Below, in pieces: positions 1 to 19,741 of a stretch of 21,434 nucleotides of DNA. The stretch's first letter is position 1; each line of letters opens with the position of its first letter. Made by a program: the position numbers and the translations under genes. Under the pieces are notes generated by a model that worked only from the letters and a program-made list of their open reading frames with translations, searched no databases and was not told the origin of the DNA. Source of the stretch: a virus; the IMG/VR virus record IMGVR_UViG_3300004457_000964, positions 1-21,434 of that record. One strand, 5' to 3'.

Positions 1-28
1 TGTCTGAGTAGTTAATTGTATATGCCAT
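1..28 (-). CDS. 5' end of a downstream gene, cut by the window edge
   Basis: Only nine codons are present, reading M-A-Y-T-I-N-Y-S-D, with no stop before the edge. The ATG (28-26) overlaps the TAA of the 203-aa gene (30-28) in a TAATG junction, the same arrangement seen at two other junctions here, so it is very probably a real, translationally coupled start. A G-run (GGGG) lies about 11 nt upstream as a weak ribosome-binding site. From memory, short structural proteins of T4-like marine phages begin with a similar MAYTIN- sequence, but nine residues cannot establish a function. By position it would be another baseplate or tail-appendage gene. Confidence 0.6.
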
Positions 29-639
29 TATTCGTTAAACCCCGATAAACTTTGTACACGCACAGTATAATCAATTTGAATAAGTCTATTCAAACTCTTT
101 TGTACTGGGTGGAAAATTACATGTGTTAACAGTCTACCTTGTCCTGATGGTAGGTAACTTACTAATCCTAATTCATCAAATACATATAAACTATTAGCGT
201 TAGTTGCGTTATCAACAGCGTCTTGTCCACTAGGTTCACCGTAATCAAGTAAACAACTAACAACAATATCTGTGTAGTTAGTACCACTTACGTGTCTTGA
301 TTCAATTTTGTTTCTTGCAGGATCAGTGTTATTAACACTTCTGTCATCAACAACTTTAATGAATGTTTGGTTATAAAGACTAGCATTAGTACCTGTACTG
401 TTAGGTGTTAGGTATGTAATAATTCCAGTAGGGTCAATACTAGTTCCTCCGTTGCCAAACGCCATTTGATAAATGGTACCTTGTCCTGCATTAGCTAAAC
501 TTTCTGCAAGTGAAATACTCATATTTTCATAGTGGATAGCATTACGTTTATCGACTATAACTTCGCCCGTTTCAGGGTTAGAAATTTTAATATGTCCTTG
601 GAGCATTACTCCGTTCTCTTCTTTTATGTTATCAATCAT
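28..639 (-). CDS. Conserved structural protein of T4-like marine phages (203 aa), probably baseplate-associated
   Basis: This 203-aa protein follows the giant baseplate gene and is probably part of the outer baseplate. Its N-terminal part carries a 'G.I.I.NPETGEVIVDKRNAIHYENMS' type segment (about residues 15-41), followed by a Gly-rich 'MAFGNGGTSIDPTG' stretch (59-72). I associate this combination with uncharacterised structural proteins of T4-like marine phages. The rest looks beta-rich, with no signal peptide, membrane segment or cysteine-rich motif. The ATG has an AGGA ribosome-binding site at 647-650 with a 7-nt spacer. A late-promoter motif lies immediately upstream, so this gene can start its own transcript. 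Its stop overlaps the next start (TAATG). In T4 the equivalent position is held by gp8 (334 aa), but the length differs and I cannot show homology, so no gene symbol is assigned. Confidence 0.8.
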   Translation of the reverse strand: MIDNIKEENGVMLQGHIKISNPETGEVIVDKRNAIHYENMSISLAESLANAGQGTIYQMAFGNGGTSIDPTGIITYLTPNSTGTNASLYNQTFIKVVDDRSVNNTDPARNKIESRHVSGTNYTDIVVSCLLDYGEPSGQDAVDNATNANSLYVFDELGLVSYLPSGQGRLLTHVIFHPVQKSLNRLIQIDYTVRVQSLSGFNE

Positions 640-651: not shown

Positions 652-664
652 TACTGTATTTATT
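652..664 (-). promoter_or_regulatory. Phage late promoter motif upstream of the 203-aa gene
   Basis: The minus strand reads AATAAATACAGTA here. The ATAAATA core matches the T4 late promoter -10 element (TATAAATA), recognised by the gp55 sigma-like factor with the gp33/gp45 machinery, and the NATAAATA form reported for cyanophages. The same 13 bp occurs upstream of the gp6-like gene. Its first bases contain the TAA stop of the giant gene (662-660), so promoter and stop codon share sequence. Transcription would be expected to start near 650, giving a leader of roughly 10 nt. Confidence 0.6.
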
Positions 665-3600
665 TGGGTAGCTCCACCTTTTCCGCCTTAAAGAAACGTG
701 CTACTAAACTTTCCGCATCATTAAGTGAAATTCCTGGATCTGTCCAGCGTTTTCCTTGTCTTCTGACAACTTTTACCTTCGCGTTCACTGCTGGTGTATT
801 TAACAGAGTTACGTTTGCTGTTGTACCATCTATTGAAAACTCTGCTAGTGCTGTTTGATCAGCTTCAGGAGAGTCTTGATCTAGTGCAGGATTAAACAGT
901 TGAATTGCATTTTTACGCAATCTTTTACCTGCAACAAACACTTCAAACTCATTTATACTTGTAGGAGTAAATGATAATGGAAATACTGCTGTTGATCCGT
1001 CACCTATTTGTTCGTCTACAATAGTTTGATCCATATAAGGTGCTGTTTGTGTTGGTCCTTGGTTGTATATATCACTTCCTGATTCATGCACACTAGGAAC
1101 ACCTGTACCTAATGTACCTCTTTGTATTTGACGTAATACATTACCTTGCTTAATTAAATATTCAATACGTTCACCGTTGATAAACAAAATACCTGGAATA
1201 CTGCTGTTCTTATCAGGTTGACTTAAATTACTTGCATCATCTAAGAATATTTCTTTATCAAACGTTGCTAAATCTTTTGCAAGTTTAAGTGGTGCAACAT
1301 CTCCAAGTCTTTTGTAAATATTTCTATTTAAAATATCTTTAAACTGACTAAATCCAAACTTAGGTGTAACTTCGCCAGTAGCACTAAATTGTATAACTTC
1401 AACTACATCATTATCTACAAATGATCCGTTATACTTAACAAAGTTCTTGTCGTCTGTTAACTTATAATCAACACTTGGCGTTTGTAATATACCGTTAACT
1501 ATTACCCAAACATATTGTGCATCAATTGCAGGATACCTTAGTTTAACTAATCCTGCTTTAATATGATTGAACTGTATGTGGTCTTCGGTGCCAACTGAGA
1601 TAGTAGATCTAGTAACAATATCAAAGTTTTGTCTTTCAAAGTCCATACTATCATGTTTATTAAATGTGTATACTGTAAGTTTTTCGCCGTCTATAGGTGC
1701 TGTAGTTAACTGTAAATTTGCTCCGCTGTCAACCCAAGTATTCTGATTGTTGATAATTTGTATATCACCAAATGCATATTCGCCATCTGTTTTTAGATAT
1801 ACTTCTAATACATCGCCGTCAACACCAATCCCTGGTTCAAGTATAACACTACTGTTTGCAGGACGAATATTATATTCAACTGCAATAGTAAGTTCTACAC
1901 CATTAAGCAATACTAATAAGTCTGAGTTATCAAAACTACCAATTGGTGTTTGCCATATTTCTAAATAGTATTCTCTTGCTAGTGCTGTTACTGCAAACTG
2001 TTGATTGTATCCAGGATTTAAAATTTTATTACCTTGCTTAACAATTACATTATGACTGTTTGGTAATGCACTGTACGGAGTTTTTGCTAGTGCAAATATT
2101 TTAGTACTTCCGTCACCTACAAATTCTGTTGTTTCAATTTTACTAAAACTATCAACTGCTGTATAAATTGCATAGTTAATTACGCTGTTGTCTGGTGGCG
2201 CCTTACCAAATACAATCATTGCTTTTGGATCTTTGTCTGTACTATCACCGCTAGATGTTAGTACTGATTCAACTGGTTCTCCGTTAACTGTTGCATAATA
2301 GTCTAACTTTTTATCATAGTGTATTTTAGTAATATATGCATTTGTGCTTCCATCACCTTTAAATTCATTTTGCTCTAAGGAATTCTTACCATTGCCACTA
2401 ATTGATAAAATGTTTACATCTTGATTAATATTAGGTACTGTATTAAAAGTAACTGTTTTAGTTCTATAATCAACAGTATATAAAGACTGTGCTTGAATTG
2501 TATCATTAAGTTTAACAATTAAGCCTTCTTTGTTTTGTGGTTGAATGCCAAAGTTATAAGATCCTATTACACCATCTGTTCTGTAAGAGTTGCTTGACAA
2601 TATACTACCACCATCTTTTGGTCTATGGAACACTCTAATGTTAACAGTATCTAATACTTGTCCTGGAACTTGCTCTTCAGGACCTTTACTTGTTGTTGGA
2701 GAAACAAAGTCATCACCATCGATAATAATTTCTTCGGGGTTAATACCTCTTGCTGTACTAAATGCTAAATCGCCTCCAGTTAGTACAGTATCATATGATC
2801 TTGGATCTGGTAAAAATGCTCCGTCGGAAGTAGTTTTTCTAAATACAAGTATATCTCCTGATCCAGTTGGAATATTTTCTTCATCAAATACAATTATACT
2901 ACTTGCTAAATCTCCAGCATCATCAAACAATGCAACACCAGTTTGTCCTGCACCTGTAATACTTGTCATCTTAGCATTTACATTTTTTTGGTCTGCTGTC
3001 ACGTAATTAGGATCATCAATTCTTATACCGTTTTTGTAAATATTATAAACTATTCCTGATACTAATGGACTAGCAAAGTTTAATACTCGCGTACTATCAT
3101 CACCAATTTGGAAAATTTCATCTTCAAATGTAGTATCAAATGTATCGTAAGTTGTTGTAAACCATTCATCTGAATCCCAACCACTACCTGTACCAAAGTC
3201 AAAACTGCTAACTTCTACTCCGCCGTAATCAATACCTTCCATTAACTGTCCAAGATCGTTTCCGTACATTCCTGTAGTTACGTTATAGTATAAATTAATT
3301 CTATCTTGTGCTTGCAATAGCTCTGGTGCTTTGTTATATTTTACAACAACTGTTTTATTTACTGCAAGTGCATTAGTGAATGCAATACGTCCTACACTTC
3401 TTGTATAACCTTTAGTAGTATCTTGAACATTACTAAACTTATATTCACTACGCAATGATTCTAATCCGTCAACTGTGACTGTAATTTCTGTTGACTTTAA
3501 CTGCATTGGCCATTTTAGATTAAATATTTGTTGATCTATAGTTGAAGTAAATGTTTCAGTTTCAGCCAGTGTTTGAAATAAGTATGTTCCTGTAACTCTA

Positions 3601-6600
3601 TCAAATTTACATCTAATGTGTGCAGATCTTGCTTTACCTTTACCAAGAACAGGACTTAGTCTAGTAACTGTTCCAGTATCTCCAAATGATCCTATAATTT
3701 GTACAGTAGGGCTTGTTAAATAACCACTGCCTGTATTTGTAACTTTAACACTTGTTACTTTACCAGATGTACCAACAAATGCTTCTGCTGTTGCCCCTGT
3801 GCCGCCACCGCCGGTAATAATAATCTTAGGAGGAGTAGTATAACCACTTCCTGCATCTGCAATGTTAAACGATACAACTTCAAAACCTACAGTATCAATC
3901 CAATGTTTGCCTGGATATGTTAAAACGTTTGCATCACCTACTGAAATTTTTCCATTAACAATTTTAACATCTTGTGGTATAATTTTTCCTTCTTGATCAC
4001 TATAGAACGGTGAAAGATCAAAGTCTGTTATAACATTACTTGCTGGATCAACTTTTTCATAAGAACTTAAATATTCTCTAATCTTAGTTTTGTAAGGTTT
4101 CATTTCTTCAACATACTGTTGATAACTAGGCAAGTTATCATTTTGGAATGTAACTTTTTGTGTTAGCTCACCAATATTATGTTTTGCTTTTACGAAACTT
4201 GTTTTAAATACCCAGTCAACATTAGGTTGCTCTGAAAATACATAGCGTATACCTGCAAAGAATAACTCATTCCAATGAACTGCAAGATTATCTACAAAAA
4301 TATCTGATTTTAAAATTTCAAGTATTTTTCTAAATTCTGTATTTGGTTCTGTATCATAAAATATTTTATCAAAACTTGCGCCATCAAATGCTGTGTTACT
4401 TGAATTAACATCGTAAAGACTATTTTTAAATACAATGGTTCCGTTTTCTCTACCAATTGTTTGATAACTTAACGTATAGTCTTGTGCATCTGTATTACTA
4501 ATTTTTCTTAGTAATAACCAACCGCCTGTTCCAACATTATTAATTTTAATAACATCATCAATTTGATCATCGAGTGCATAAATTTGATAACTAGAATCAA
4601 TAGTATGATTTACAAATGTAAATTGATTGTATCCCGATAAGTACCAGTCTATATAATTCCAGTATAAATTAACATCATAACTTTGTGTTAATGTTCTTAA
4701 ATATTCTGTGCCATTCCATTGGTATATACTCCACTTACTACCAATAGTTTCGTCGCTCTTAACAAGAACTGCAAATTTTCTAACAGTAATTAATACATTA
4801 CTTGTATAATCTCTGCCGCCATTAACAATATTAACAGCTGATATTGCTCCATTAGCATCAAGTGTAAATTCTAATACTGCACCAGAGCCTTCTGTATCTG
4901 TAATTTTATGCGTAGGCACATTAATGTACCCTGTACCTGCATCATTAATTAACACATTAATAATAACGCCGTTTTCAACTTCTAATGTTAGGCTAGCAGG
5001 TTTAACTCTAGCAACACTAACAAATCCTATCTCAGCATAACTGTCAGATGTTGTATCATATAATCCTGTTGCTATAGTAGGTCGAGGATCAAATCCAGTT
5101 AATTTAGTTAAATTAAAATCATCAACAATTAAATGCTTGCTTAGTGTATTGTTTGTTCTTTCAATAAACTGTTTACGTGCTTCTGTTCTATTAACAAACC
5201 AACTTTGTCTTGGGTCATTTAACGCACCGTACTTCTCTTTAGTTGGCAAATTAATATCTGGTACTGGTCTGTCATTCTTGTCAAACCCAACTAAACTATC
5301 AAACCATTTTTGTTCAATTTCAGCATTAGGCACACTTGACTCTAACCCATCAGTAACTAATTGATACTGAAGGTGTGTAGGTTGTTGTTGGTTTTCAATT
5401 GTCCACCAGTTAAAGCTAATTGCAGTATCTCTGTCGTTAACAAATGCTTGACAATTATGTAACGCATATCTATTAGATCCTAACATAGCAACAAATTTAT
5501 ATCCTAATCCTGCTGGATCTGAAATTAGTCTAGATACATTAGATGCACTTATTGATCTATTCTCTACATTTGGTTTTGTTGCTTTGTTTAATACCCAATA
5601 GTAATAATATGTTGTAAATGTTTGAGATATTTCGTCAAACTTTCTTCTAACACTGTATGCTCCGTCGCCGTATAATGTAGTTCCGCTAATGCCTTGATCA
5701 AGAGCCGCTGTAGATCCTGTTTCAGCGTCCCATGCACTTGGTAATAAAGTAGATTCTACCCATTCATAAACATTAACTGTTGTTCCTGGAAAAAGTTTAT
5801 TAAATGTTGCTGATGCTTCTGTAATATCGCCTTGATGATGATTAATAAACTTAGCACTATCAATATCCCACCATAACTTACCAATCCATTTATCGCTGGT
5901 GTAGTCTGAATTTGCAGTTATTGTAGAAGCTGTTGTAGTGTTTGAATATCTTGCTGGGTCATAGCTTGTTTTAAAAGTAATTTCTTGTTCTGCTGGTCCT
6001 GCTATTTTTCCTTGTATCGGATCAATGTAATCTAGATATGTAAGTAAGCTATTAGTATTTACATCATATAAGTATACACCTTTAAACTTACTAGTATCTG
6101 CTGGAAGTATTGGCGATCTTGTAATTGACCAAGATGCTGTGTTTATTGGTTTTCTGTACTCAGCAACTAAGCCTTTATCAATTACACTACTATTTGGTAC
6201 TTGCTGTTTTGGTAATCCAATGTAAACATGGTTATTATTTACAAGCATCCTACTACCAAAATCTTGTGTATCTAAATCATATCCAAAGTCTTGACTGTAC
6301 AGTAGCGTATTATTAACTGTTTCGTATAAACTTACAACACCGCTTCCTCTATCAGTAACTTTAAATGATGTTGAAGCATTATCTAATGAAGTAGTATTAG
6401 AGTCAAATGTTGTTGCTGTGACAATATCTCCGCCTCTTGATGTAACTGCAAGTGTATTACCATCAAAATCTAATTTAAAACCAAACTGTGTATTAGGTTG
6501 CGTTGTTACCGGTCGAATAGTTTGACTATAACTAAATGTTGTTCCATTTTGTGTATAAATGTAAACTGCACCAGCATTGGATTCTATTTCGCTATTTAAT

Positions 6601-9600
6601 GGAGCGCCAACTGCAATCTTAGTACCGTCATTTGATACTGCAATAGTAGTACCAAAATCTTCAGTTTGATTAAAAGGTTCTAATATTTGCGAATATTCAT
6701 AATTTGAACTGTTAAGTCTGTATACTACAACTTTTCTATTTGCAATACTACTATCTAATCCTATTACTGCATCTCCAGATTCAATTTCGTACACACTTGT
6801 ATACATTGAATTGGCAATTAATACTTCTCCGTCTGTACTAACATCAAAATCAGTACCAAATGCTTCTAAGTTTCCTTGATCAAGTGTACTTTCAACTAAC
6901 GAGAAGTTTGTGTCATTAGGCACATACCCTAGTAAATCTAATCCAGTAGTTTGTGCAGTCCATTGACTAACATTAAACACTCCAGGTATTAAATTAGTAT
7001 TTGCTTTATATACTGTTTCTCCAAATCTAACATATTCGTTTTCAAAATAAGTTGCTGAAGTTCTAAAGTTTCCTCTATAAGTTTTCTGTACAGATAATGC
7101 CCAATCTTCTGTAGAATTTTTATTTATAAAGTATATTCTACCCTGGTTAGCTTCTGTTCCATCACCTTCAGCATGAACATAAAGTTTATAACTAGAAGAA
7201 TCTGGTTGTACAAATCTTAATTTTGTTCCTAATTTTCTATTGTCAGCACTATTAGGTACTGTAAAATAATTAATAAGACTGTAAGTAACACCTTTCATTT
7301 CATAAACTGCAAATGTACCTTGTTCACTTAACCCTGTTCCGTAGCCTTCTGCAACAACAGGAAGATTATATACTCTTGTCCAGTCTAAGTTAATTGATGA
7401 TGGAGGATTAGCACTATCAGTAATACCTTCAATAGTATTTGAAGAATAAATCCAGTACTCTAACTCTCTTAAATAATTTGTGCCTCCAACAACTACAGGA
7501 ATATTAACTGTATTATCAATAACCAGTATAGGTCCTGATATAGTATTTTCCATATGTGCTGAATTAATAGGACCAATAGTTCTTACAGTTGAATCGTTTT
7601 CAATAAATGTTGCATTTGAATTTGTACCAAAGTCTGATCCTACTGCCCAAGTTCCGTTTCTATTCTTAACATAAATTTTTGCTGTAGCAAATGATCTTTC
7701 AATAAATGCAATTTCAGCTCTTGAGTTTGTTGCAGTGTCTGTTAGAATGTCTCCAACATTTGGAATAAACGGATCTCCATTTAAATCAAAGTTTGTTAAT
7801 CTAACTTCTACATAACCGTTCCATACATCATAAACAGTATGCTCTGTATCATTAATATATGTTGATGTTAAGCCAATAACTGAAGGGTCTTGCACTAATC
7901 CATTAACACGAATGTCATTTAACCAAATTCTTGTTTTATCACCTGATGTAATACTGTTTCCGTGTGCTAGTGGTGTTCTAATCCACCACTTGCTATCAAG
8001 TACTTGTACGTTACTCTGTCCTTGTGTATGAGAAAGTATACCAAATTCGCTAACTTTTGTTGGTTGTAAAATATTTTGTAACTGTTTAGTGTCTAAAATA
8101 TTGCTAAAGTAAGGACTGTTAACTACGTTACCTTCTAATGTAATATTTTGTATTACTAAATTTGCATTTTTTTCTGTTAATTCTGATGAAGTAAATGTTG
8201 ATCCAGCATTAACATACCACCAGCCTGTATGATAATCATCAGTAATTTGAAGTACTTCTTCATATTGTCCAACTAAGATACCATTTGCATATATTGATCC
8301 TGATCCTGTAAATGATCCGTTTACATTTTTAATATAAACTTGCATTTCATTTTCATCATTAATTCTTCTATAAGCTAATGTTGCTCTACAAGTATCAGTT
8401 GTTATTTCGATACCTGCCGCAGGTACTGATAATGCACTTTGAATGTGTGCAATGTGTTGTACCTTTTCAACAATAGTATGTTGTCCATTAATAAGTGCTT
8501 CAGTAATTACGCTACTGTTGTTAAAAGGTAGTGTACCTACTTGATTACTAGTTGTATATTTGTTCCATTTAAGAGTTAATATATCTCCAGGCTTAGTTCC
8601 TTCAAACTGTTCTTTTTCAGCTCTAATTAAAATATGATCTGTGTCTGAACTAGTGCCTAATGTATAGTCCCCTCGTACAATATACTCAATATCTGGATAG
8701 CTTTGAGTATTACTTACATAATCGTTACCTTTAGCTTGAACATTAGATGAATGATTTTGATATAGTTGTAAAGCGTCAGCTTCTATATTTCTTGCCGCTT
8801 TCCACAATTGATCTGAATATAGCACAACATCGTTTTGTACGTAACTAATGTTATTTTGGTAATCACCTTTTAGCTTGCTTTTAACATTTGAAGCATGTGG
8901 TGAGCCAATTGCAAGATATTTGCCATCTGGACTCATTGCAACACTTTGACCAAATCCGCCATTTGAATCAAACAAGAATAGTTGTTCATCTATTTGCTGT
9001 AAGAATCCAAAGTCTGTATTATCACTAGGTCTTTGAAAAACATAAACACTACCATTTAAGTCTTTAGGTGCAGTAATTGCTATACGGTTATTATTTTTTG
9101 CTACACTAACTGCACTACCAAAGTCTTTTTCAGTAGAATCTAGTAGCCCGGCCGCAGTATTAACAATATTAGGTTTTAATTCAAAAACTTGTTTATTCTT
9201 TAGAACAATCCACTTACCTGTGTCGTCATCGTCAACCCAAATTGTATTAGTTGCATTGTTATTTCCACTTAGACTAAACAGATTGTTTGGGTCTTTTTTA
9301 ATACTATCATTAGCTAGTGATAATGTAGAAAGTCTTGCTAATTTAAATTCTGTAATAAATCCATTTACTACTGCATCAGCTTCTGTTGCTTCAATATCTT
9401 CGCCTTCAACGGATTCTAGTTTAACAACGTCAAGTTCAATACTATCAACTTTGTAATATCCATTAGTTGCATCTGATACATTATGAATTCCAATAATTTC
9501 ACCTTTTACAAAGTTGGATTGTTTATCTAAAGTAACTGTAAATATATTTGATTGGCTTTCACTTACTGCTATAATTTTATATTCTGTTGTCTGTGACTTA

Positions 9601-12600
9601 TATACTCCCCATGTTTGTTGAGTTTTATCTGTAGCAGTCCAAATATAACTACCTGAGGAATATAAAGGTTGATCTAAAATAGCGTCATATGATACCAGCG
9701 ATGCTGTAATGTCCGTAGGATTTACATAACCTGCTGTTTTAGTATAACTGTTATTATCATTAAAGTATTTTGTAGGTAAAGGCTTATGATCATAGTTATC
9801 TGGTTTAACATATACACTATTTCTATCTAATCTATAAATTAAACTTGTATCTTGAGGATTAATTGAATCAACTAATTCAATTAGTTGAGGTTCTTGTCTA
9901 TATCTTGCTTCGTCAAGTATTAAATCAAACTGCTCATCACCTGTTGTTGCTCCGTAACGTCCTACACGTACAGCCCATTCTTCAAAAAATTCTAAACTAT
10001 CTTTATTAGCACTTCCTAGTTTGTCAAAAAGTTTTGTAAGAACATTTTTTGTGCCTTTGTCTGCAATCGCTCCTTGGTAAAATTTATACTGACTTACATC
10101 ATCATTAATAATGTTTTCAAGATACTTACGCTTTTGATATCCTGTTAAATGTTGTGCTAGTTTCTGTTGTTCACTGTCAAAATTATCTGAGTCAAGATCG
10201 TAAAAGTCTGCAAACTGCCTTGCTTTATAATCAAAATTAGGTAGTAGTTGTTGTTCAGGCTTTTCATTTAATCTTACAAAGTTTGCATTTGTAAATTTTT
10301 CTGTTCCGGTTACCTTTTTTGTAGCAACATAATAAAACTGCTTATGTTTTACTAATGCTCCAATTGAGTAATCTTGCCAAGAAGTCCATTCAACTGGTTT
10401 TGCATCATCAAAGATAAATCCTGGAATATTATAAGAACCGTTCCATTCATCTGAACGGTAACCTTTAACCTTAATTCTTTCTTGTCTATATCCTTGTGCT
10501 CTATTATAAATTACGTCACCAAATACAGTACTGTTATCAATAATAATTGCATGTTCGTGTTGTATTACTGGAATCTTAAGATGATATATTCCATCGTTTG
10601 TATTTCTTACAAAAATTCCAAAATCATTTGTATTATCACGCTCGGTTGTTGCAAAATCTGCAAGTAATCTTTTGCCATCTGCTTTTAATAAACTATAATC
10701 ATAAAAATTATCGTATATGTCATCAACTACAACATAAGGTTTTGTAAATTCAATTTGTCTAGCACTCGGACTTAATGTTAGTATGGTTCCGCTATCCCAA
10801 GCCTGTGTGGTCCAGAATAAAAATTCTTTAGCACTTAGTACCCAGTTTTCAACTTCTTCAATGTCTTGGTTAAAGTTATTAAAACTAAATCCTACACGAG
10901 TTAAGTATTCTTGATACCCAAGTAATAGATCAACTACCTCTTGTTTTTCTCTAAGCAGTGTACCGTACTGCATTTCTTTTAACTCTTTTTCAAAGTTTGT
11001 TCTTATATATGCTGATGCACCGCCTTCTTCAGGTAACTCAGCTAATTTTTGGAAATTATCTTGGTTAAATGCATCGCCTGCTGTATGAGATAGTTTTACT
11101 CTATAATACGAATCAGCTATTTCAACAATTTGTCCTGCTTGATATGTTTTTCCTGTTGTCCAGACTAAAAAGTTTTCACTAACACCGCCAACTGTTATTA
11201 CCCGATCACTATTCTTTGTTCTAACAGGATAATGTTTAAATACTGGATTATCTTTGTCATATCCTTTAACAATATACCCGCCTGGTGCAATTTCAACTAT
11301 AACACCACTATAAGAATATACATCTAAAGGAATACTTTTAGTTAAGTGTATTTTATAGTTTTCTTCTGGTACAAAAACATTACCTTCATTTGTTGGCGTT
11401 CTTGAATCTAATATTAATCTAAATTTAGATTTTTGTGTAAAGCCACCAATTTTAGACCCTAGTTTATTTTCTATTGCTTTTAAATTTTTTGTGTACTCAT
11501 TAAATCTAAGTGTGTCATTTTCAATTAGGTATCCTTGCATATAGTTTACAATACCTGCTGTAAATACTCTTGATGCATCAGTTGCACTATTTGGAAATAC
11601 TAATTTGTTTAATTCAATACGTTTACTTGTATCTTTATAGACCAACTGCTCTGCACTATTACGTACAATTCTACTTCTATCAAATGCTAAACCAAAAAAC
11701 TGTGCTGGTTGATTTAATGCCCAAGATATCATTAAACTAAACGGAAAATGTGAACTTCTGCGCCAAGCAGTTTCTACTGGTCCTTCATCTCCAAATGCAA
11801 ATTCATTGCCATTTGTATTAGGAATATTACCTACAGCATAACCAGTTGCACTTGGTGCTAATAAGTTTCCATTAGCATCAGTTGGGATATACTTGTAAAT
11901 ATCTTCGTTTTTAAATTTATTTCTGTAAGTTACTTTTGATCCTTCTACACCTCTTACAATACCTTTAGACAAATCTTCCCAAAGTAGTAAGTTACTATTT
12001 GTATACGGTGCTGTACCATACTCAGTGTCAAACCAAATTGGCTTTTCTTTAAACCCAAGTACTTCCCACGGATGACTATGAGGTCTATCTGTGTTATAAA
12101 AGTCTTTGTATATTGATCTCCAAAAACCAGTTAATGGTTTTCCGTTTGGATCTCCTGCTGATGCATAGTTATATGTAAATCCGTCGCCATTCCTATAAAA
12201 TGTATTAGATACATAGTCTGGTGTTCCTACAGTTTCTAACCAATTATTAAATTCTGAAATCATTGTTTTAGAAACTTGTCTTCTAGTAAAGCCTGTTGTT
12301 CTAGATTTACTAGGAATGTAGTCTACAATATCTAATACATTTTCGTTGTACGGAAGTTTTAAGTTGTTATAAATTCTTTTTTCAAGATCTAACAATAAGT
12401 TATCTCTAAAATCTCCAAAACATCTCCACAAAGATCCATCATGACCTTGTAGCATTGGTCTTGCACCTTCATACTCGTTATATGTTTGACTGTCATTAGT
12501 AGCATGATTCATTGTGCCGTTTGGCATATAAAATAATGTATTAGTTCCTGCAAATACATGAACGTGTGCTGTACCGTTTCCGCTTGCGGCAAGGTCTGCT

Positions 12601-15600
12601 TGTTGTGCTGATACTTCATCTGTATACAGAGGATAGTACCAACCTAGTTTATTATAATAGGTTTTATCTGTTTGTGTATCTCTACCGTATACTTTCCAAG
12701 GACCTGTTACGTCTGTTGGTGTTTTAATATAAGTATCGTCTAAGAAAATTTCTGGAGTAAACTTAGGATATAGTCCTAACTTTGTAGGTGTAGGTGGCAC
12801 CCAGCAACCGTCAGTTGACATGTATTCGTAAACATCTAGTACATCTCCAGCTGTTGGAGAATTTAATAATGTTAAAAATCCATCTGTACTAACTGTGTAG
12901 TCTTTGCCAAGTACTAGTTGTTTTTCATTTAGGTATGCTAATACTGCTTTCTCAGATAACATTGTAAAGTCAATACCACGTGTTAACGAAAATATTGTTT
13001 GGGATTGATCTTCAATGTTATGCTTTACTGATGTTTCGCCGCCGTTGGCTAACATGTCACTAAAGTAAAATGAATCTTTATTAGTTTTATTTGAGTTAAG
13101 CTCTGTAAGTACTTTATCAACATGTACTTTATCAAATCCTTCGAATCCTAATTCATTTGATACTTTTAAAAATTCTCTTTTGAACTTAATGTATTCAAAT
13201 GCCGACCATTTCATTGCTTCAATAGCATCGTAGTCTTTATCTGTTAAATTATATAACGCAAGGTTAACTGGGCCACTATGTTGTACAAATTTTAATCCGT
13301 ACTGTGATGAATTACCTAAATCACGTAAATTACTAACACCAGGATATGTACCTTTAAATCCAGTTACATTGTCAACAATACTATTAACATGATCTAAAAC
13401 TTCTCCTAAAGTAAATGTATTAACATTTTCGTTTTGAGGATTCTTTTCAAAGTTAATTGGAAACTCATAATGCCCTAATCCGTTTAGTTTTTTAGCACTA
13501 GATGTTGTTTTTAAGACTAGTTTATCGTTTACTACTAAATTTGTGTAAAATGCAACATACGCATATCCGTTGACACGGTTAATAGTATAATCAACTCCAT
13601 CTCTTTTACGAGTACTGTTTACATAAACTTTGATTTCTAAATCATTTAAATCACCACTATTATTATAAACATCAATAATAAAATTATTAGTTCTATCTGC
13701 TACTGTAAACTGATCAACAACAGGCTGTGTAGATTTTTTTGGTGCTTTAGTCCAACCCGATACGTTTGCATACGAAGTTCTGTTAGTATATTGTCTTAGT
13801 AATGCTGTGTCCGTACTAACTGTATACACATCTGCTAATTCATCATATTGATAAGTGTCTGATAATAAATTAAAATCAAAAACAATATCACCACTATTTT
13901 CAATAGTTCTATAACTTAAAGGAAATCCTAGTTCAGTATCATTAGTTCCTGTACCAACTTTATAACTAAACACTTTGTTACCAGTAAATGTACTTGACTC
14001 TAATGTAGACAACTGTGTGCCTGCATCATTGTATAAATCAAACAACGGTTGTTGATTAACTTTTGTTTTGTCTTGTGTTTGTTTCCAAGTAGTTCCGTTG
14101 TAGTAAAAGATCTTACCTTTATAATTTGTACCTGATTTTACAAGAACTGTTTCATTTGTTAATGGTGTAGTGTCTGTAGTTTCTTTTAATGCAAGTTGAG
14201 TTTGGCCATTTTGGCTAATAAAACTAACTTGATAGATTTTGCCAGAAACAAAACTATCTGGATCTGCTGTAAACAATACACGCATTCCTGACACAAGTTC
14301 AACGCCGTCAACAAAGTAACCTGCTTGTCCTTCAATATCTGAAAACACATCTTTAGTAACTGTATCAACTAAATCAACTGCTGTTTTTGCTTCGGTACCA
14401 AAATTATAAAGTTTTAGTCCTGCATCAAATTCAATAATTGGTCTTGTAGCTCTGTAGTTTTGATCTAAAACTACAGGAACATTATTAATTTCCGCAATAG
14501 TTTCAATAACACTTTTATGTGTCCATTTGTTATAACGTGACCATTGATTACTATCTTTAGATGATCTATTAATAACAATGTAATCTTTTAATATAGCATA
14601 TGACGTTGCATCATCAAATGGTAACGAACTAAATCCTTGTGCATCAAATTCAGTAGAAATATCAGTTAAGTAATCAGCAGTAATAACTAAATCTTCTTCT
14701 GCTATTAGTTTAATAGAGTCGCCGACTCCTTCAACATACCAATTTCCTTTACCGTATTTGGCTGGTGTAATTGTTCCGTAAAACTTTACTTTCATACCAT
14801 TGGTTAATTCATAACCAGTTTGCATAGTATAAGTTTTTTTACCTATAATTTCATCGCCAACATTTAATTGAGTATTGTCTCTAACATCTTTGATAATAAT
14901 AAGTCCTGATGCCTCAATATCGTTTCCGTTTGCATAATATAAAGTATCTGGTGATTCTAATCCTACAGTCCAAACAATAATACCTTGTTCTACTTTTTGT
15001 TGACTTACACCAACATTATATAAACTTGTGTCGTCATCAATAGTATTAGTAGTTCTAATACTAAAAGGCATATCAATACAATCAATATCAAAGTTATATG
15101 TTTGACCTCTGTATAGAGTAATTGTTGGATTGCTTACTTTATTTTCTTTACTAAAGATATAAGAGTTATTATCTATATTGTCTTGGCGCTGTACTGCGAA
15201 TGTACTAGTAATATTCCTTGCTGTTCCGTAAACTGGAATTTCATTAGGGCCTGCCGGTAACCAGTAGTATTCTCTAAAGTTTACAAACTTGTCCCAATTA
15301 ACATGTGGGTTCCAAGCATAGTATTCTTGCGAACTATACATACTATGATTATCATTATCTGTATTTCTAATTTTACTACTGTTTACACGATCTCGATAAT
15401 CACCATAGTAAGTTGTATTACCTAAGTTATCAGTAACGGTAGCAATTGGTTCAAGTTGATAATTTTCTCTGTCTGCACTAACATCAGCAACATAGTTGTC
15501 CGTAGCTTTGAATGCTTTTGCATCTCTACGTCCAATATACCCATCAACTTTTTCAATCGATCCTGGCTGAGTTAGCTGATCAATTGTACTACTTAGAAAC

Positions 15601-15698
15601 TTTTTATTTGCTGTTGTTCTAAAATATCTTGGTAGTAAGTCAGCTGTTCTTCTTTTTGCATCCCCGCTTGTTGGGATTGGACTTTCATCTTGTGCCAT
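660..15698 (-). CDS. Giant multi-domain baseplate wedge protein (5012 aa), at the T4 gp7/gp8 position
   Basis: This single uninterrupted reading frame of about 15 kb encodes roughly 550 kDa (at 110 Da per residue); T4 gp7, its positional counterpart, is 1032 aa. The N-terminus has the 'LLPRYFRTTANKKFL' and 'GYIGRRDAKAF' segments (about 20-65) and a 'NWDKFVNFREYYWLP' segment (about 130-150), which I recall from large marine T4-like structural proteins. In order follow: a cupredoxin-like region (188-270), CBM5/12-like segments (near 1511, 1770, 2275 and 2873), an alpha-helical conserved block (1821-1972), FG-GAP repeats (2185-2270 and 2940-3165), G-x-GY repeats (3575-3640 and 3943-4011), a helical 'YQQYVEEMKPYKTKIREYL' block near 3860, and C-terminal GDGST beta-domains (4447-5012). 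Near 4800-4870 is a 'GILFINGERIEY...RGTLGTG' segment. There is no signal peptide or membrane span. The ATG overlaps the gp6 stop. The role as outer wedge and scaffold is inferred from gene order. Confidence 0.85.
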   Translation of the reverse strand: MAQDESPIPTSGDAKRRTADLLPRYFRTTANKKFLSSTIDQLTQPGSIEKVDGYIGRRDAKAFKATDNYVADVSADRENYQLEPIATVTDNLGNTTYYGDYRDRVNSSKIRNTDNDNHSMYSSQEYYAWNPHVNWDKFVNFREYYWLPAGPNEIPVYGTARNITSTFAVQRQDNIDNNSYIFSKENKVSNPTITLYRGQTYNFDIDCIDMPFSIRTTNTIDDDTSLYNVGVSQQKVEQGIIVWTVGLESPDTLYYANGNDIEASGLIIIKDVRDNTQLNVGDEIIGKKTYTMQTGYELTNGMKVKFYGTITPAKYGKGNWYVEGVGDSIKLIAEEDLVITADYLTDISTEFDAQGFSSLPFDDATSYAILKDYIVINRSSKDSNQWSRYNKWTHKSVIETIAEINNVPVVLDQNYRATRPIIEFDAGLKLYNFGTEAKTAVDLVDTVTKDVFSDIEGQAGYFVDGVELVSGMRVLFTADPDSFVSGKIYQVSFISQNGQTQLALKETTDTTPLTNETVLVKSGTNYKGKIFYYNGTTWKQTQDKTKVNQQPLFDLYNDAGTQLSTLESSTFTGNKVFSYKVGTGTNDTELGFPLSYRTIENSGDIVFDFNLLSDTYQYDELADVYTVSTDTALLRQYTNRTSYANVSGWTKAPKKSTQPVVDQFTVADRTNNFIIDVYNNSGDLNDLEIKVYVNSTRKRDGVDYTINRVNGYAYVAFYTNLVVNDKLVLKTTSSAKKLNGLGHYEFPINFEKNPQNENVNTFTLGEVLDHVNSIVDNVTGFKGTYPGVSNLRDLGNSSQYGLKFVQHSGPVNLALYNLTDKDYDAIEAMKWSAFEYIKFKREFLKVSNELGFEGFDKVHVDKVLTELNSNKTNKDSFYFSDMLANGGETSVKHNIEDQSQTIFSLTRGIDFTMLSEKAVLAYLNEKQLVLGKDYTVSTDGFLTLLNSPTAGDVLDVYEYMSTDGCWVPPTPTKLGLYPKFTPEIFLDDTYIKTPTDVTGPWKVYGRDTQTDKTYYNKLGWYYPLYTDEVSAQQADLAASGNGTAHVHVFAGTNTLFYMPNGTMNHATNDSQTYNEYEGARPMLQGHDGSLWRCFGDFRDNLLLDLEKRIYNNLKLPYNENVLDIVDYIPSKSRTTGFTRRQVSKTMISEFNNWLETVGTPDYVSNTFYRNGDGFTYNYASAGDPNGKPLTGFWRSIYKDFYNTDRPHSHPWEVLGFKEKPIWFDTEYGTAPYTNSNLLLWEDLSKGIVRGVEGSKVTYRNKFKNEDIYKYIPTDANGNLLAPSATGYAVGNIPNTNGNEFAFGDEGPVETAWRRSSHFPFSLMISWALNQPAQFFGLAFDRSRIVRNSAEQLVYKDTSKRIELNKLVFPNSATDASRVFTAGIVNYMQGYLIENDTLRFNEYTKNLKAIENKLGSKIGGFTQKSKFRLILDSRTPTNEGNVFVPEENYKIHLTKSIPLDVYSYSGVIVEIAPGGYIVKGYDKDNPVFKHYPVRTKNSDRVITVGGVSENFLVWTTGKTYQAGQIVEIADSYYRVKLSHTAGDAFNQDNFQKLAELPEEGGASAYIRTNFEKELKEMQYGTLLREKQEVVDLLLGYQEYLTRVGFSFNNFNQDIEEVENWVLSAKEFLFWTTQAWDSGTILTLSPSARQIEFTKPYVVVDDIYDNFYDYSLLKADGKRLLADFATTERDNTNDFGIFVRNTNDGIYHLKIPVIQHEHAIIIDNSTVFGDVIYNRAQGYRQERIKVKGYRSDEWNGSYNIPGFIFDDAKPVEWTSWQDYSIGALVKHKQFYYVATKKVTGTEKFTNANFVRLNEKPEQQLLPNFDYKARQFADFYDLDSDNFDSEQQKLAQHLTGYQKRKYLENIINDDVSQYKFYQGAIADKGTKNVLTKLFDKLGSANKDSLEFFEEWAVRVGRYGATTGDEQFDLILDEARYRQEPQLIELVDSINPQDTSLIYRLDRNSVYVKPDNYDHKPLPTKYFNDNNSYTKTAGYVNPTDITASLVSYDAILDQPLYSSGSYIWTATDKTQQTWGVYKSQTTEYKIIAVSESQSNIFTVTLDKQSNFVKGEIIGIHNVSDATNGYYKVDSIELDVVKLESVEGEDIEATEADAVVNGFITEFKLARLSTLSLANDSIKKDPNNLFSLSGNNNATNTIWVDDDDTGKWIVLKNKQVFELKPNIVNTAAGLLDSTEKDFGSAVSVAKNNNRIAITAPKDLNGSVYVFQRPSDNTDFGFLQQIDEQLFLFDSNGGFGQSVAMSPDGKYLAIGSPHASNVKSKLKGDYQNNISYVQNDVVLYSDQLWKAARNIEADALQLYQNHSSNVQAKGNDYVSNTQSYPDIEYIVRGDYTLGTSSDTDHILIRAEKEQFEGTKPGDILTLKWNKYTTSNQVGTLPFNNSSVITEALINGQHTIVEKVQHIAHIQSALSVPAAGIEITTDTCRATLAYRRINDENEMQVYIKNVNGSFTGSGSIYANGILVGQYEEVLQITDDYHTGWWYVNAGSTFTSSELTEKNANLVIQNITLEGNVVNSPYFSNILDTKQLQNILQPTKVSEFGILSHTQGQSNVQVLDSKWWIRTPLAHGNSITSGDKTRIWLNDIRVNGLVQDPSVIGLTSTYINDTEHTVYDVWNGYVEVRLTNFDLNGDPFIPNVGDILTDTATNSRAEIAFIERSFATAKIYVKNRNGTWAVGSDFGTNSNATFIENDSTVRTIGPINSAHMENTISGPILVIDNTVNIPVVVGGTNYLRELEYWIYSSNTIEGITDSANPPSSINLDWTRVYNLPVVAEGYGTGLSEQGTFAVYEMKGVTYSLINYFTVPNSADNRKLGTKLRFVQPDSSSYKLYVHAEGDGTEANQGRIYFINKNSTEDWALSVQKTYRGNFRTSATYFENEYVRFGETVYKANTNLIPGVFNVSQWTAQTTGLDLLGYVPNDTNFSLVESTLDQGNLEAFGTDFDVSTDGEVLIANSMYTSVYEIESGDAVIGLDSSIANRKVVVYRLNSSNYEYSQILEPFNQTEDFGTTIAVSNDGTKIAVGAPLNSEIESNAGAVYIYTQNGTTFSYSQTIRPVTTQPNTQFGFKLDFDGNTLAVTSRGGDIVTATTFDSNTTSLDNASTSFKVTDRGSGVVSLYETVNNTLLYSQDFGYDLDTQDFGSRMLVNNNHVYIGLPKQQVPNSSVIDKGLVAEYRKPINTASWSITRSPILPADTSKFKGVYLYDVNTNSLLTYLDYIDPIQGKIAGPAEQEITFKTSYDPARYSNTTTASTITANSDYTSDKWIGKLWWDIDSAKFINHHQGDITEASATFNKLFPGTTVNVYEWVESTLLPSAWDAETGSTAALDQGISGTTLYGDGAYSVRRKFDEISQTFTTYYYYWVLNKATKPNVENRSISASNVSRLISDPAGLGYKFVAMLGSNRYALHNCQAFVNDRDTAISFNWWTIENQQQPTHLQYQLVTDGLESSVPNAEIEQKWFDSLVGFDKNDRPVPDINLPTKEKYGALNDPRQSWFVNRTEARKQFIERTNNTLSKHLIVDDFNLTKLTGFDPRPTIATGLYDTTSDSYAEIGFVSVARVKPASLTLEVENGVIINVLINDAGTGYINVPTHKITDTEGSGAVLEFTLDANGAISAVNIVNGGRDYTSNVLITVRKFAVLVKSDETIGSKWSIYQWNGTEYLRTLTQSYDVNLYWNYIDWYLSGYNQFTFVNHTIDSSYQIYALDDQIDDVIKINNVGTGGWLLLRKISNTDAQDYTLSYQTIGRENGTIVFKNSLYDVNSSNTAFDGASFDKIFYDTEPNTEFRKILEILKSDIFVDNLAVHWNELFFAGIRYVFSEQPNVDWVFKTSFVKAKHNIGELTQKVTFQNDNLPSYQQYVEEMKPYKTKIREYLSSYEKVDPASNVITDFDLSPFYSDQEGKIIPQDVKIVNGKISVGDANVLTYPGKHWIDTVGFEVVSFNIADAGSGYTTPPKIIITGGGGTGATAEAFVGTSGKVTSVKVTNTGSGYLTSPTVQIIGSFGDTGTVTRLSPVLGKGKARSAHIRCKFDRVTGTYLFQTLAETETFTSTIDQQIFNLKWPMQLKSTEITVTVDGLESLRSEYKFSNVQDTTKGYTRSVGRIAFTNALAVNKTVVVKYNKAPELLQAQDRINLYYNVTTGMYGNDLGQLMEGIDYGGVEVSSFDFGTGSGWDSDEWFTTTYDTFDTTFEDEIFQIGDDSTRVLNFASPLVSGIVYNIYKNGIRIDDPNYVTADQKNVNAKMTSITGAGQTGVALFDDAGDLASSIIVFDEENIPTGSGDILVFRKTTSDGAFLPDPRSYDTVLTGGDLAFSTARGINPEEIIIDGDDFVSPTTSKGPEEQVPGQVLDTVNIRVFHRPKDGGSILSSNSYRTDGVIGSYNFGIQPQNKEGLIVKLNDTIQAQSLYTVDYRTKTVTFNTVPNINQDVNILSISGNGKNSLEQNEFKGDGSTNAYITKIHYDKKLDYYATVNGEPVESVLTSSGDSTDKDPKAMIVFGKAPPDNSVINYAIYTAVDSFSKIETTEFVGDGSTKIFALAKTPYSALPNSHNVIVKQGNKILNPGYNQQFAVTALAREYYLEIWQTPIGSFDNSDLLVLLNGVELTIAVEYNIRPANSSVILEPGIGVDGDVLEVYLKTDGEYAFGDIQIINNQNTWVDSGANLQLTTAPIDGEKLTVYTFNKHDSMDFERQNFDIVTRSTISVGTEDHIQFNHIKAGLVKLRYPAIDAQYVWVIVNGILQTPSVDYKLTDDKNFVKYNGSFVDNDVVEVIQFSATGEVTPKFGFSQFKDILNRNIYKRLGDVAPLKLAKDLATFDKEIFLDDASNLSQPDKNSSIPGILFINGERIEYLIKQGNVLRQIQRGTLGTGVPSVHESGSDIYNQGPTQTAPYMDQTIVDEQIGDGSTAVFPLSFTPTSINEFEVFVAGKRLRKNAIQLFNPALDQDSPEADQTALAEFSIDGTTANVTLLNTPAVNAKVKVVRRQGKRWTDPGISLNDAESLVARFFKAEKVELPK
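989..2358 (-). repeat. Three GDGST beta-domain repeats at the C-terminus of the giant protein
   Basis: Three segments beginning with the GDGST motif lie at codons near 2358-2344, 2117-2103 and 1003-989 (about residues 4448, 4528 and 4899). Each is followed by an aromatic/hydrophobic strand (the third reads GDGSTAVFPLSFTP) and, about 20-30 residues later, by a 'V.V.G' type strand. The pattern is common in phage tail and appendage proteins as small beta-sandwich repeats. Between copies 2 and 3 lie similar but degenerate units, for example around 'VWVIVNGILQTPSVDYKL'. The repeat exists at protein level; the DNA copies are too diverged to be recombination substrates. Confidence 0.6.
3665..3875 (-). 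repeat. Paired G-x-GY beta repeats (second block) in the giant protein
   Basis: Two half-repeats are visible: 'DAGSGYTTPPKIIITGGGG' then, about 37 residues on, 'NTGSGYLTSPTVQIIG', separated by 'GTGATAEAFVGTSGKVTSVKV'-like strands. The pattern is G-x-GY, then 'P.(V/I).I', a glycine turn and an alternating Ala-rich strand. I recognise it as a recurrent module of marine phage and bacterial surface proteins. Function is unknown; a structural beta-solenoid or sandwich spacer is likely. Confidence 0.6.
4778..4975 (-). repeat. Paired G-x-GY beta repeats (first block) in the giant protein
   Basis: 'DAGTGYINVPTHKITDTEGSG' is followed by 'AVLEFTLDANGAISAVNIV' and then a degenerate 'NGGRDYTSNVLITV', the same alternation as the block at 3665-3875 but less regular. 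About 370 residues of predicted mixed helical sequence separate the two blocks, so they are probably a dispersed duplication within the protein. Confidence 0.5.
6203..6878 (-). repeat. FG-GAP (integrin-alpha-like beta-propeller) repeats, second cluster, in the giant protein
   Basis: Four repeats can be read: 'AFGTDFDVSTDGEVLIANS', 'DFGTTIAVSNDGTKIAVGAP', 'QFGFKLDFDGNTLAVTS' and 'DFGSRMLVNNNHVYIGLP', each followed by a 'vyvY' type strand such as 'GAVYIYTQNG'. This FG...(N/D)G..LA(V/I)G.P pattern defines FG-GAP blades. Known FG-GAP domains form seven-bladed propellers used for adhesion or protein contacts. Together with the cluster at 8888-9143 about six blades are visible, so a complete propeller would require the segment between them to be looped out. 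Confidence 0.65.
6948..7081 (-). other. CBM5/12-like segment 4 in the giant protein
   Basis: Residues about 2873-2917 read 'YRGNFRTSATYFENEYVRF' followed by 'GETVYKANTN' and, after a proline-containing gap, 'VSQWTAQT'. This matches the layout Y..G..V.Y.g..Y.A......W..., typical of chitin-type carbohydrate-binding modules 5/12 (about 45 residues with aromatic ligand residues). Here the first conserved Trp is replaced by Tyr/Phe. Sugar binding is inferred. Confidence 0.45.
8775..8876 (-). other. CBM5/12-like segment 3 in the giant protein
   Basis: Residues about 2274-2308 read 'KGDYQNNISYVQNDVVLYSD' then 'QLWKAARNIEAD', matching 'G.W...Y..GD.V.Y....W.A'. It follows the first FG-GAP pair directly. 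It is the clearest of the four for the 'Y..(N/G)DVV.Y...(W/Y).A' core but lacks a clear closing Trp. Confidence 0.45.
8888..9143 (-). repeat. FG-GAP repeats, first cluster, in the giant protein
   Basis: Two blades are visible: 'DFGSAVSVAKNNNRIAITAP' (with 'GSVYVFQR' as the next strand) and 'GFGQSVAMSPDGKYLAIGSP'. These are close to the FG-GAP consensus and match the cluster at 6203-6878, about 700 residues later in the protein. Confidence 0.65.
10260..10388 (-). other. CBM5/12-like segment 2 in the giant protein
   Basis: Residues about 1770-1812 read 'WTSWQDYSIGALVKHKQFYY' then 'VATKKVTG' and 'FTNANFVRLNE', matching W....Y..G..V.....(Y/W).A.......(N/W)F..L. It directly precedes the conserved helical block at 1821-1972. 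Confidence 0.5.
11033..11163 (-). other. CBM5/12-like segment 1 in the giant protein
   Basis: Residues about 1511-1555 read 'WTTGKTYQAGQIVEIADSYY' then 'RVKLSHTAGDAF' and 'NQDNFQKLAEL'. The W..G..Y..G..V....(Y/W).. pattern with a closing F..L is the best match of the four to the carbohydrate-binding module 5/12 layout. Confidence 0.5.
14888..15134 (-). other. Cupredoxin-like beta-sandwich segment near the N-terminus of the giant protein
   Basis: Residues about 188-270 begin 'ITLYRGQTYNFDIDCIDMPF' with 'SIRTTNT', then 'YNVGVS...', a 'WTV' strand, 'PDTLYYANGNDIEASGLIII'. This order (RG.TY.F ... PF.I.T ... G(V/I) ... P..LYY ... SG.I.I) is the cupredoxin-like layout I know from marine phage tail proteins. 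The usual copper ligands (His in the HPF-type turn, Cys/His near the LYY strand) are absent here: Met-Pro-Phe replaces the His, and Asn/Ala/Gly occupy the ligand loop. If the fold call is right, it is a structural, metal-free version. Confidence 0.4.
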
Positions 15699-18600
15699 TA
15701 GTATCCATAACCTCCGCCGCCGCCGGAGCTTCCGCTTCCGCCGCTTGATCCTGAACTACTTGAACTACTTGAACTACTCGAACTACTTGAGCTTGTTGTA
15801 GTTGTTGTAGTTGTAGTACTTGTTGTCAACGCTTGACTCTTAATTCCAGTATTAATAGTTCCTGTTGATGTAACTACATTTCCTGCCGATTGTATTCTAG
15901 ATGCTGTAACAGAGTCAATAATTTCAATATCGTCAACTGTTGCATCATTAATAAAAATTTCATTATTTTCTGCTTTAACTTCGTATAAACTTCCAAATCC
16001 TTGTGTAGCTTGTTTAGGTACTAATAAAATATTAACAACATCTGGTGCTACTCTATTCATAATGTGTGTTGCAAGTTCGGTAAAATGGAATGAGTCTCCA
16101 AAGTCCCAATTTTGTAATGCAAAGAATGAATTAATTGCTCCAATTACTTGTGTTTTTACTTGGTTATTATTAACTACTTCGCCGCTATTTTTTACAATTT
16201 TAAATGTTGCTTGCAAATTGTCTTGTGCATGTTTTCCAAACAAAGGCTTGTACTCTACTGAGTGATAAATTACTTCATCACTAATTGATTTATACTGACT
16301 AATTTGCTCACCATAATTTTGGAATAATTCGTCTGTACTTGCTGGAAGCGGTTTACTAGCAATTGAACCAGTAATGTAATTTCTAAAGTTAGTATCATAT
16401 GCTTGAGTAAGCATGTATACATCAATAATATTACTTGCACTTGGATCAATTCTGTTGCCGTCATCTGCACTGTGTACATACTGAAATTTAAGATCTGATC
16501 TACCAACGTGTGCTTTATAATCTGCTGTTACTACAAGGACATTATTAGTTAGTACCTTAAAGTTATTGTTATCAATAATATAAAAAGCCTGGCCTGTTGA
16601 ATACTGACTATATGCTCCAATTTCAGTTTCTGTTGTAACAGTTCTAATTGCAGTTCCTGCATTATAATAATTGTATTTGTTAAATCCCTGATCTGATGAT
16701 TCTTTCTTTAAGAAAATATATTTTGTAGATGCATTTGTTAAAGGAGCAACTACAGCATCAAAAATATCCGGATCGTCAATACTGCCATCATCATTTAAAT
16801 CAAAAAAGCTAACTTCAACTTTTTTACTATTAATGTATCCATCTGCGTTTCTAAATGCATTTACAATTTCCCAATTAATATCATTACTAAAAGGTAAAAG
16901 GCTGTCAGGCTGAGTATTAAAGTTCATAACTGCAACTTTATCTTTTACTAATTGTCCTGTTTGCGAATCATAAATTTTGTTTTGTCCATCAAAGTAAAAA
17001 CTAAGTTCTTTATCACTTTCAAAAATATATCTAAGGCCTCTGTTTGTAACTGTATACTTTTCACCATTTGTTTCAAATAGTATTAACCAACTCGAATCAA
17101 GTTGATTATTTGTTACATCTCCAGTTTTACCGTTACTAAAAACATCTACTGTGTTTAAGTTTTCGTTAATAATAACACGCCAGTTTCTTGTAACTTGGTC
17201 GTATCGTAATCCAAACGTTTTATATGCAAATACTTGATCAATAATTTGTGATCTAACATCTGTTGAAATGTCTTTTACTAGTTTTGGTTTAACTTCTTCT
17301 AGTATACTATTTGCAGGTAGTATTTCGTTAAACACAACAGGACCAGTACCAGTTGTAGTACTAACACTTGTACCTGCACCGTCTACGCTTATAACTTTAA
17401 CCCATTTATAACTACTTGCACCTTTTGCTGTACTGTTACTTGTAAGTTCTCCATCACCTATAAAATAAAATCCAGCTGGTGGTTTAAATTTAAGTAATGC
17501 GCCAGCTTCTACATATTTTAATGAACCGCCAGTAAATGTTCCAAGTTGATATGCAACGTCATTTATATTCTTTAATAATCCTGTTGAACTATTAGTTGTC
17601 TTTGTTGACTGGGTCCACGTAGCATTAAGATCACTAACAATAATTTTAGCATAGTTTGCAAAGTAAAAATTACTAATTGCTCTGTTTTGTATAATAGGTA
17701 ATATTGAATTTTCGATTGTACCTTCAATATCTGTTTGAGTAGCAAACGTAAATGAAGTTTTACTTTCGTATGGCTCTCTATAAAGGATACCATCACTACC
17801 ATATAAATTTGTGCTGGAATATTTTCCAGTAGCATCTTTAAGATCAAAGTATCTACTAATACCACTAGCAACTCTATTTGTTGATTTAACTTTAATAATT
17901 TCTTGATTAGTAGTTAGAGGAACAATATTATAATCTTCGCCTGTAACCATTCTATTTTGTGTATAATAAGTTTGCGGAGCATTAGTTCTAATACTAGATG
18001 TTGTTTCGCTAGTAGTAGCATTAGTTACTGCTGTTTTAAGTTCTAAACCAACAGTCATTGTTTCTGATGTTCCTGCTTTAGAAACATAAGGGAAACTAAT
18101 AGTAATATCTGTTAAGTCAGCTGGATTAATACTTAATGTTCTATTAGCACTAGTTCTATAATAAAGTCTAAATCCGCCTTGTGGCAAGTTTCCAAATGTT
18201 CCGTCTGCAAATACTAAACTAATCTCATCATTAGATCTTGTTTGTACAACATAAAAGTTTTTAATTTTTTTATTTAAACTATTGTAGATTGCATTGTTTC
18301 CTTCAGTTGAACTAACTTTTGTCCAAATATTTGTAGGAATTCCGTTACTGTTTAATTCATAAAGCCAAACATCAGAATCGTTAATATTTTCTGCTTCAAT
18401 AGAGATTCTTTGATTAGCTGTAGGACTAGAAATATCAAATGCATTAGACTTTAAACTACCTTGTCTAAAGTGCAAGAAATACCCTGAGTTTGAGCTTCCT
18501 GATCCTCGGCCATCTTCTCTATATAAAAATGCTAAACTGTTTCCTGGTACTGGATTTTCTTCTGTTATTACATTAAAGTCAGTATCAATTCCAGTTGACA

Positions 18601-19306: not shown

Positions 19307-19741
19307 TCACGATAATCCAACGCTTTTATCAAACTGTAACTTTAATTGTTCACTAATATTATAGTCTAAGTACATTAATGTACATTCTATTTGTAGTCCA
19401 CTTTCGTACTCTGAAACTTGCACACTTGCGGCTCGAGTTCTTGGATCATAGTTTACAATATTTGTAACATTTGCTGTGATTGCGTCTTTTAGTTGTGCTG
19501 TTAACGGCTCATATAAGGCATCCCAAATAATACAACCAAATCTAGGATCAGATAACTTCTCTCCTTGACGAATATTAAGATGATTTAATAAGTTTTGTTT
19601 AATTAATGAAATATCAAACTGTTGAAAGGAATTATTTTCCGGATTAACAGTACTAAACCCTCTGTATGCTTTTTGTGCTACAGGTGGTTTCTTGTCTCTT
19701 TTAGGAGTAATTTTAATTGTTTTATATAAATCTGTTGCCAT
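19307..19741 (-). CDS. gp25: gp25-like baseplate wedge protein (144 aa)
   Basis: T4 gp25 (132 aa) is a small core-wedge protein that contacts the sheath and belongs to the GPW/gp25 family. The family signature is seen at about residues 56-80: 'NIRQGEKLSDPRFGCIIWDA' followed by 'LYEPL', containing the GE..(x)P.FG motif; the following 'IV.YDPR' (96-101) and 'L.YL.YN' strands also fit. The length is normal. The N-terminal 40 residues are Lys/Pro-rich and less conserved. The ATG is preceded by AAGG with a roughly 10-11-nt spacer (19752-19755). The gene starts 18 nt after the PAAR gene's stop and ends before the 63-bp gap with a late promoter, so it is probably the last gene of the spike transcript. 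Confidence 0.9.
   Translation of the reverse strand: MATDLYKTIKITPKRDKKPPVAQKAYRGFSTVNPENNSFQQFDISLIKQNLLNHLNIRQGEKLSDPRFGCIIWDALYEPLTAQLKDAITANVTNIVNYDPRTRAASVQVSEYESGLQIECTLMYLDYNISEQLKLQFDKSVGLS

Follow-up and report, generated by a model that had tools for sequence, protein, structure and literature searches.

Each of the six baseplate wedges of T4 contains two copies of gp6, which gp7 links together. In T4 the slot after gp6 holds gp7 (1032 aa) and gp8 (334 aa), as a sequence-only reading of the DNA described here had stated. Giant gp7 proteins of cyanophages (PHROG 2885, 701 and 4406) occupy the same place after gp25 and gp6. The lengths of the proteins in this slot, calculated from annotated coordinates, are 5195 aa in P-SSM2, 7312 in P-SSM4, 6198 in S-RIM14, 6076 in syn9, 4314 in S-CAM7, 3891 in S-8S55 and 3516 in ACG-2014j. 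Cyanophage gp7 shows that a gp7 protein can be giant, and its core matches T4 gp7 in profile-profile comparison (probability 92%). T4 gp7 has also been described as missing in pelagi- and cyanomyophages, with a VrlC protein suggested as its substitute (PMC7029224), which leaves the gp7 assignment in marine phages unsettled.

The window, which is the whole of a viral contig of 21,434 bases, carries a giant gene in the same slot. Its genes lie on the minus strand in the order GH19 protein, PAAR protein, gp25, gp6, 5012-aa giant and 203-aa protein:

20243-21433, minus strand: GH19 (chitinase/lysozyme-like) protein, reaching the contig end
19760-20062, minus strand: PAAR protein, 100 aa, whose frame opens with TTG
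19307-19741, minus strand: gp25-like wedge protein, 144 aa (PF04965, E 1.4e-9)
15698-19243, minus strand: gp6-like baseplate wedge protein, 1181 aa (PHROG 10646 at 1e-286; PHROG 219)
660-15698, minus strand: predicted giant virion protein of 5012 aa in the gp7 slot, a member of PHROG 10938 (open frame, PHROG match, dN/dS, homologues)
28-639, minus strand: 203-aa downstream protein (PHROG 11259, E 8e-72)

The gp6-like protein, which has matches in 94 phage records, is the likely partner of the giant. It is far longer than T4 gp6 (660 aa), and its C terminus (15698-15830) is a low-complexity tail of Thr, Ser and Gly that contains two short tandem repeats built from 9-base units. The PAAR frame opens with TTG both in the window and in the relative L173 (2622-2924, plus strand), and may therefore use a TTG start. 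The GH19 protein, with matches in endolysin and tail-fibre families, is possibly the tail lysozyme.

The giant (calculated mass 560.6 kDa) is encoded by a single 5012-codon frame that begins with ATG and has no internal stop in the ORF listing and translation. At its junction with gp6, ACTAATGGCA, the gp6 stop codon TAA and the ATG of the giant overlap by one base (TAATG). Purifying selection is uniform along the frame: in comparison with L054, dN is 0.05-0.09 and dS 0.46-0.77 in 10 of 10 blocks of 500 codons (dN/dS ~0.1 per block), and comparison with L081 gives a similar picture. Because this pattern holds in all blocks, the whole frame represents one gene under selection. Collinear, uninterrupted copies are present in 25 further contigs, some of them near-duplicates of each other, and these copies, the dN/dS values and the 15-kb length place the frame far beyond chance. 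The intact copies and the low dN/dS throughout also rule out an assembly or gene-calling artefact, to which we assign a negligible probability. The uninterrupted 15-kb frame that the sequence-only reading saw directly after gp6 is thus borne out. Self-BLAST detects no internal repeats in the giant.

A length of 5012 aa was at first placed at the very long end for such proteins, but the proteins in this slot are 5195-7312 aa long in P-SSM2, syn9, S-RIM14 and P-SSM4, and the cyanophage lengths as a set put the giant in mid-range. Marine relatives abound in IMG/VR, where our profile scan yields at least 599 matching stretches. In the near marine clade, the 25 complete homologues besides the window protein (some of them near-duplicates) are all 4979-5033 aa long, and a wider set of complete homologues spans 4452-5294 aa. 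A length common to most homologues, which had been named as evidence against unusual growth, is therefore found inside the marine clade, but not across the whole family. Giant baseplate proteins of phages form a large family that has been catalogued before, and the window protein is an ordinary example of it, with a length that is common to its clade and exceeded in known phages.

This family is PHROG 10938, which the two halves of the giant match with E-values of 3.3e-227 (four stretches) and 1.9e-82; the best stretches cover profile positions 810-1464 and 1807-2470 of 3324. The tblastn matches of the giant fall in 87 and 85 phage records. Isolate homologues in jumbo phages are 3326 (RaK2), 3340 (CBB), 3323 (phAPEC6), 3771 (Vibrio 2.275.O), 3857 (the PA5oct-group phage Cassandra) and 4449 aa (Atu_ph07) in length, and each lies after gp6, as in the window. 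The complete order gp25-gp6-giant is kept in L173, Cassandra, Atu_ph07, RaK2, CBB and phAPEC6. Among these isolates, Salicola phage SCTP-2 is the only exception to the position directly after gp6: its 3807-aa homologue is located ~90 kb from the gp6 homologue, beside another protein of 3096 aa. In alignments with the isolates, the likeness amounts to homology over residues ~1-2000 and 3200-4000 of the giant, and the C-terminal part shows weaker similarity.

Two members of the family have been detected in purified virions by mass spectrometry. These are phAPEC6 gp245 (381.88 kDa; 17 unique peptides; PMC7247149) and CBB_236 (21 peptides; PMC5259590). According to gene positions, the former adjoins the gp6-like wedge protein gp244 and the latter adjoins the wedge protein CBB_237. 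Virion detection concerns these CBB and phAPEC6 homologues only, which are shorter and occupy the same locus, and the window phage is known from its 21.4-kb contig alone. A wedge role for the giant is supported by gene order, by full-length conservation and by the presence of these homologues in virions, and the proposed baseplate role at the gp7 position accordingly agrees with synteny in many phages and with published mass spectrometry. We consider it probable that many jumbo-type phages with contractile tails form a large group in which this wedge protein takes over the place of gp7.

A competing explanation, which we regard as unlikely, is that the giant has no relation to gp7 and follows gp6 by chance; it would then be a scaffold of the baseplate or tail fibres, and some other protein would form the gp7 core. 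The separation of the gene from gp6 in SCTP-2 is in keeping with such a scaffold, as is the catalogue entry for PHROG 10938, an unspecified virion structural protein in the category head and packaging. The gp25-gp6-giant order in most of the phages speaks against chance placement. Further evidence on both sides comes from features within the protein:

14799-15155, minus strand: LYRGQTY..PFSIRT module, residues 182-300 (tblastn, occupancy)
11055-11162, minus strand: CBM5/12 module (chitin-binding type), residues 1513-1548 (PF02839, E 2.5e-6)
9896-10256, minus strand: candidate gp7-like core, a strongly conserved stretch predicted to be helical, residues 1815-1935 (FYQGAIADKGTKNVLTKLFDKL; hhalign versus cyanophage gp7 core)
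6099-9698, minus strand: length-variable middle with FG-GAP repeats, residues ~2001-3200 (occupancy table, PF14312)
9036-9128, minus strand: FG-GAP repeat, residues 2191-2221 (PF14312, E 6.5e-5)
6555-6662, minus strand: FG-GAP repeat, residues 3013-3048 (PF14312, E 1.5e-6)

The giant does contain several unrelated domain types, as had been noticed from the letters: a CBM5/12 module, a fibre-like module, GSGY repeats and two FG-GAP repeats. Residues 182-272, within the fibre-like module, are 36% identical to a P-SSM2 tail fibre-like protein (tblastn). The GSGY repeats, near residues 3940-4005, are common to the giant and cyanophage gp7 (hhalign), and match a depolymerase tailspike in a profile search of PDB sequences. 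Such searches with four blocks of the giant returned only chitin-binding modules, this tailspike match and chance hits. AlphaFold2 models comprise residues 1090-2012 and 3185-4012, about one third of the giant. In the first of these, Foldseek aligns the CBM5/12 module to chitin-binding modules (probability 1.00, rmsd 1.7 Å) and also to the baseplate receptor complex of Agrobacterium phage Milano (8fqc, 2.9 Å). The second model (pLDDT 78.8) has no PDB match by Foldseek. Structure prediction of the two regions, a check proposed with the initial reading, therefore confirmed the CBM5/12 module but gave no gp7-like fold match. The modules held in common with tail fibre proteins and a depolymerase tailspike are also compatible with a scaffold that has no relation to gp7.

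Alignment occupancy shows a main length-variable region at residues ~2000-3200 and a second one at about 180-300, and the difference between the isolates (3323-4449 aa) and the window protein lies mostly in these two places. The middle region (~2001-3200) is largely missing in the RaK2 and Vibrio 2.275.O homologues. The LYRGQTY..PFSIRT module is mostly missing in RaK2-like homologues, with an occupancy of 0-0.06 in L004 and L005 over residues 201-300. RaK2-type homologues thus largely lack the 182-300 module as well as the FG-GAP region, as would be expected if modules had been gained here or, alternatively, lost in the other line. Growth by domain gain, as first suggested, is thus consistent with the occupancy map relative to the shorter jumbo-phage homologues, but the unusual length it was meant to explain is not upheld.

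The window giant and the giant gp7 of cyanophages are both made of beta modules, among them the GSGY repeat, and the cyanophage proteins are of similar or larger size, but no overall homology between them was found: when the two were aligned over their full length by hhalign, only the GSGY repeats and two-column artefacts matched. T4 gp7 (PHROG 964) is found in the same place after gp6 and is five times shorter than the giant, which it does not match significantly as a whole in either sequence or fold. PHROG 964 has no match in the giant, and neither BLAST, profile-profile comparison (PDB) nor Foldseek of the two modelled regions detects a whole T4 gp7 domain. This lack of full-domain similarity in sequence or fold is a further point in favor of a scaffold unrelated to gp7.

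A more local resemblance points the other way. We divided the giant into blocks of 91 residues and aligned each by hhalign to the cyanophage gp7 core. The block containing FYQGAIADKGTKNVLTKLFDKL (match at ~1875-1911) scored best of the entire giant, with 25.7 versus a shuffle mean of 11.9, and 0 of 150 shuffles reached its score. The match is short (~37 columns, probability 24%) and contains the motif FY..KGT. That this block ranks first in the entire protein is evidence against an unrelated scaffold. With the T4 gp7 profile the alignment falls at the FY..KGT motif too, but without significance, since 13 of 150 shuffles are as good. The giant may share with T4 gp7 a core that has an FY..KG motif and then a helix, plus a similar post-core beta module. 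Blocks ~2386-2476 and 2611-2701 of the giant, in the variable region, resemble this beta module (0 of 100 shuffles each), although beta modules of the post-core type may be widespread. AlphaFold2 predicts residues 1815-1935 to be helical with a pLDDT below 50, a value that we would expect if the core folds solely together with gp6.

On this sequence evidence, gp7 identity of the giant is plausible, and the conserved candidate core with its predicted helices and FY..KGT motif suggests a gp7 that has grown in both directions, which the structure predictions failed to confirm. The core is N-terminal in cyanophages, whereas the candidate core of the window giant is near residue 1880. Tentatively, and at slightly less than even odds, PHROG 10938 proteins could be true gp7 homologues with the core in mid-chain. 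By this account gp7 would have become giant twice independently, and residues 2000-3200 and 182-300 would represent modules for docking to receptors or fibres that can be exchanged.

The genes downstream bear on another explanation of the length, a gp7-gp8 or gp7-gp8-gp10 fusion in which the frame absorbed adjoining wedge genes. No gp8-like gene follows the giant in the window, as a fusion would predict, and the next gene encodes the 203-aa PHROG 11259 protein. A 203-aa ORF likewise follows the giant in L173, and genes of 198-201 aa, compared by size and position alone, lie shortly downstream of it in Cassandra, SCTP-2 and Vibrio 2.275.O. By BLAST, neither the giant nor the 203-aa protein shows similarity to gp8 of T4 or P-SSM2, and T4 gp9, gp10 and gp11 have no match in the giant. 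Moreover, a separate gp8 is retained beside the giant gp7 of the cyanophages P-SSM2, S-CAM7 and ACG-2014j. We therefore judge a fusion to be highly improbable.

If the giant does replace gp7 as a wedge protein, its candidate helical core (~1815-1935) would join two gp6 copies in each of six wedges in the manner of T4 gp7. The long N- and C-terminal arms of beta modules would then form the outer part of the baseplate, where they would bear or anchor elements that bind carbohydrates and fibres. The length of 5012 aa probably arose from modules gained mainly at 2000-3200 and ~180-300, and is stably kept within the marine clade.

Proteins of 3300-7300 aa in the gp7 slot are common, not rare, in marine and jumbo myophages. 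The annotation of PHROG 10938, now an unspecified head-and-packaging virion protein, could be improved to baseplate wedge. The candidate core near residue 1880 is a concrete place to test for shared ancestry of the two giant families and T4 gp7. If the PHROG 10938 family does descend from gp7, gp7 would have been enlarged C-terminally in cyanophages and on both sides of its core in jumbo-type phages.
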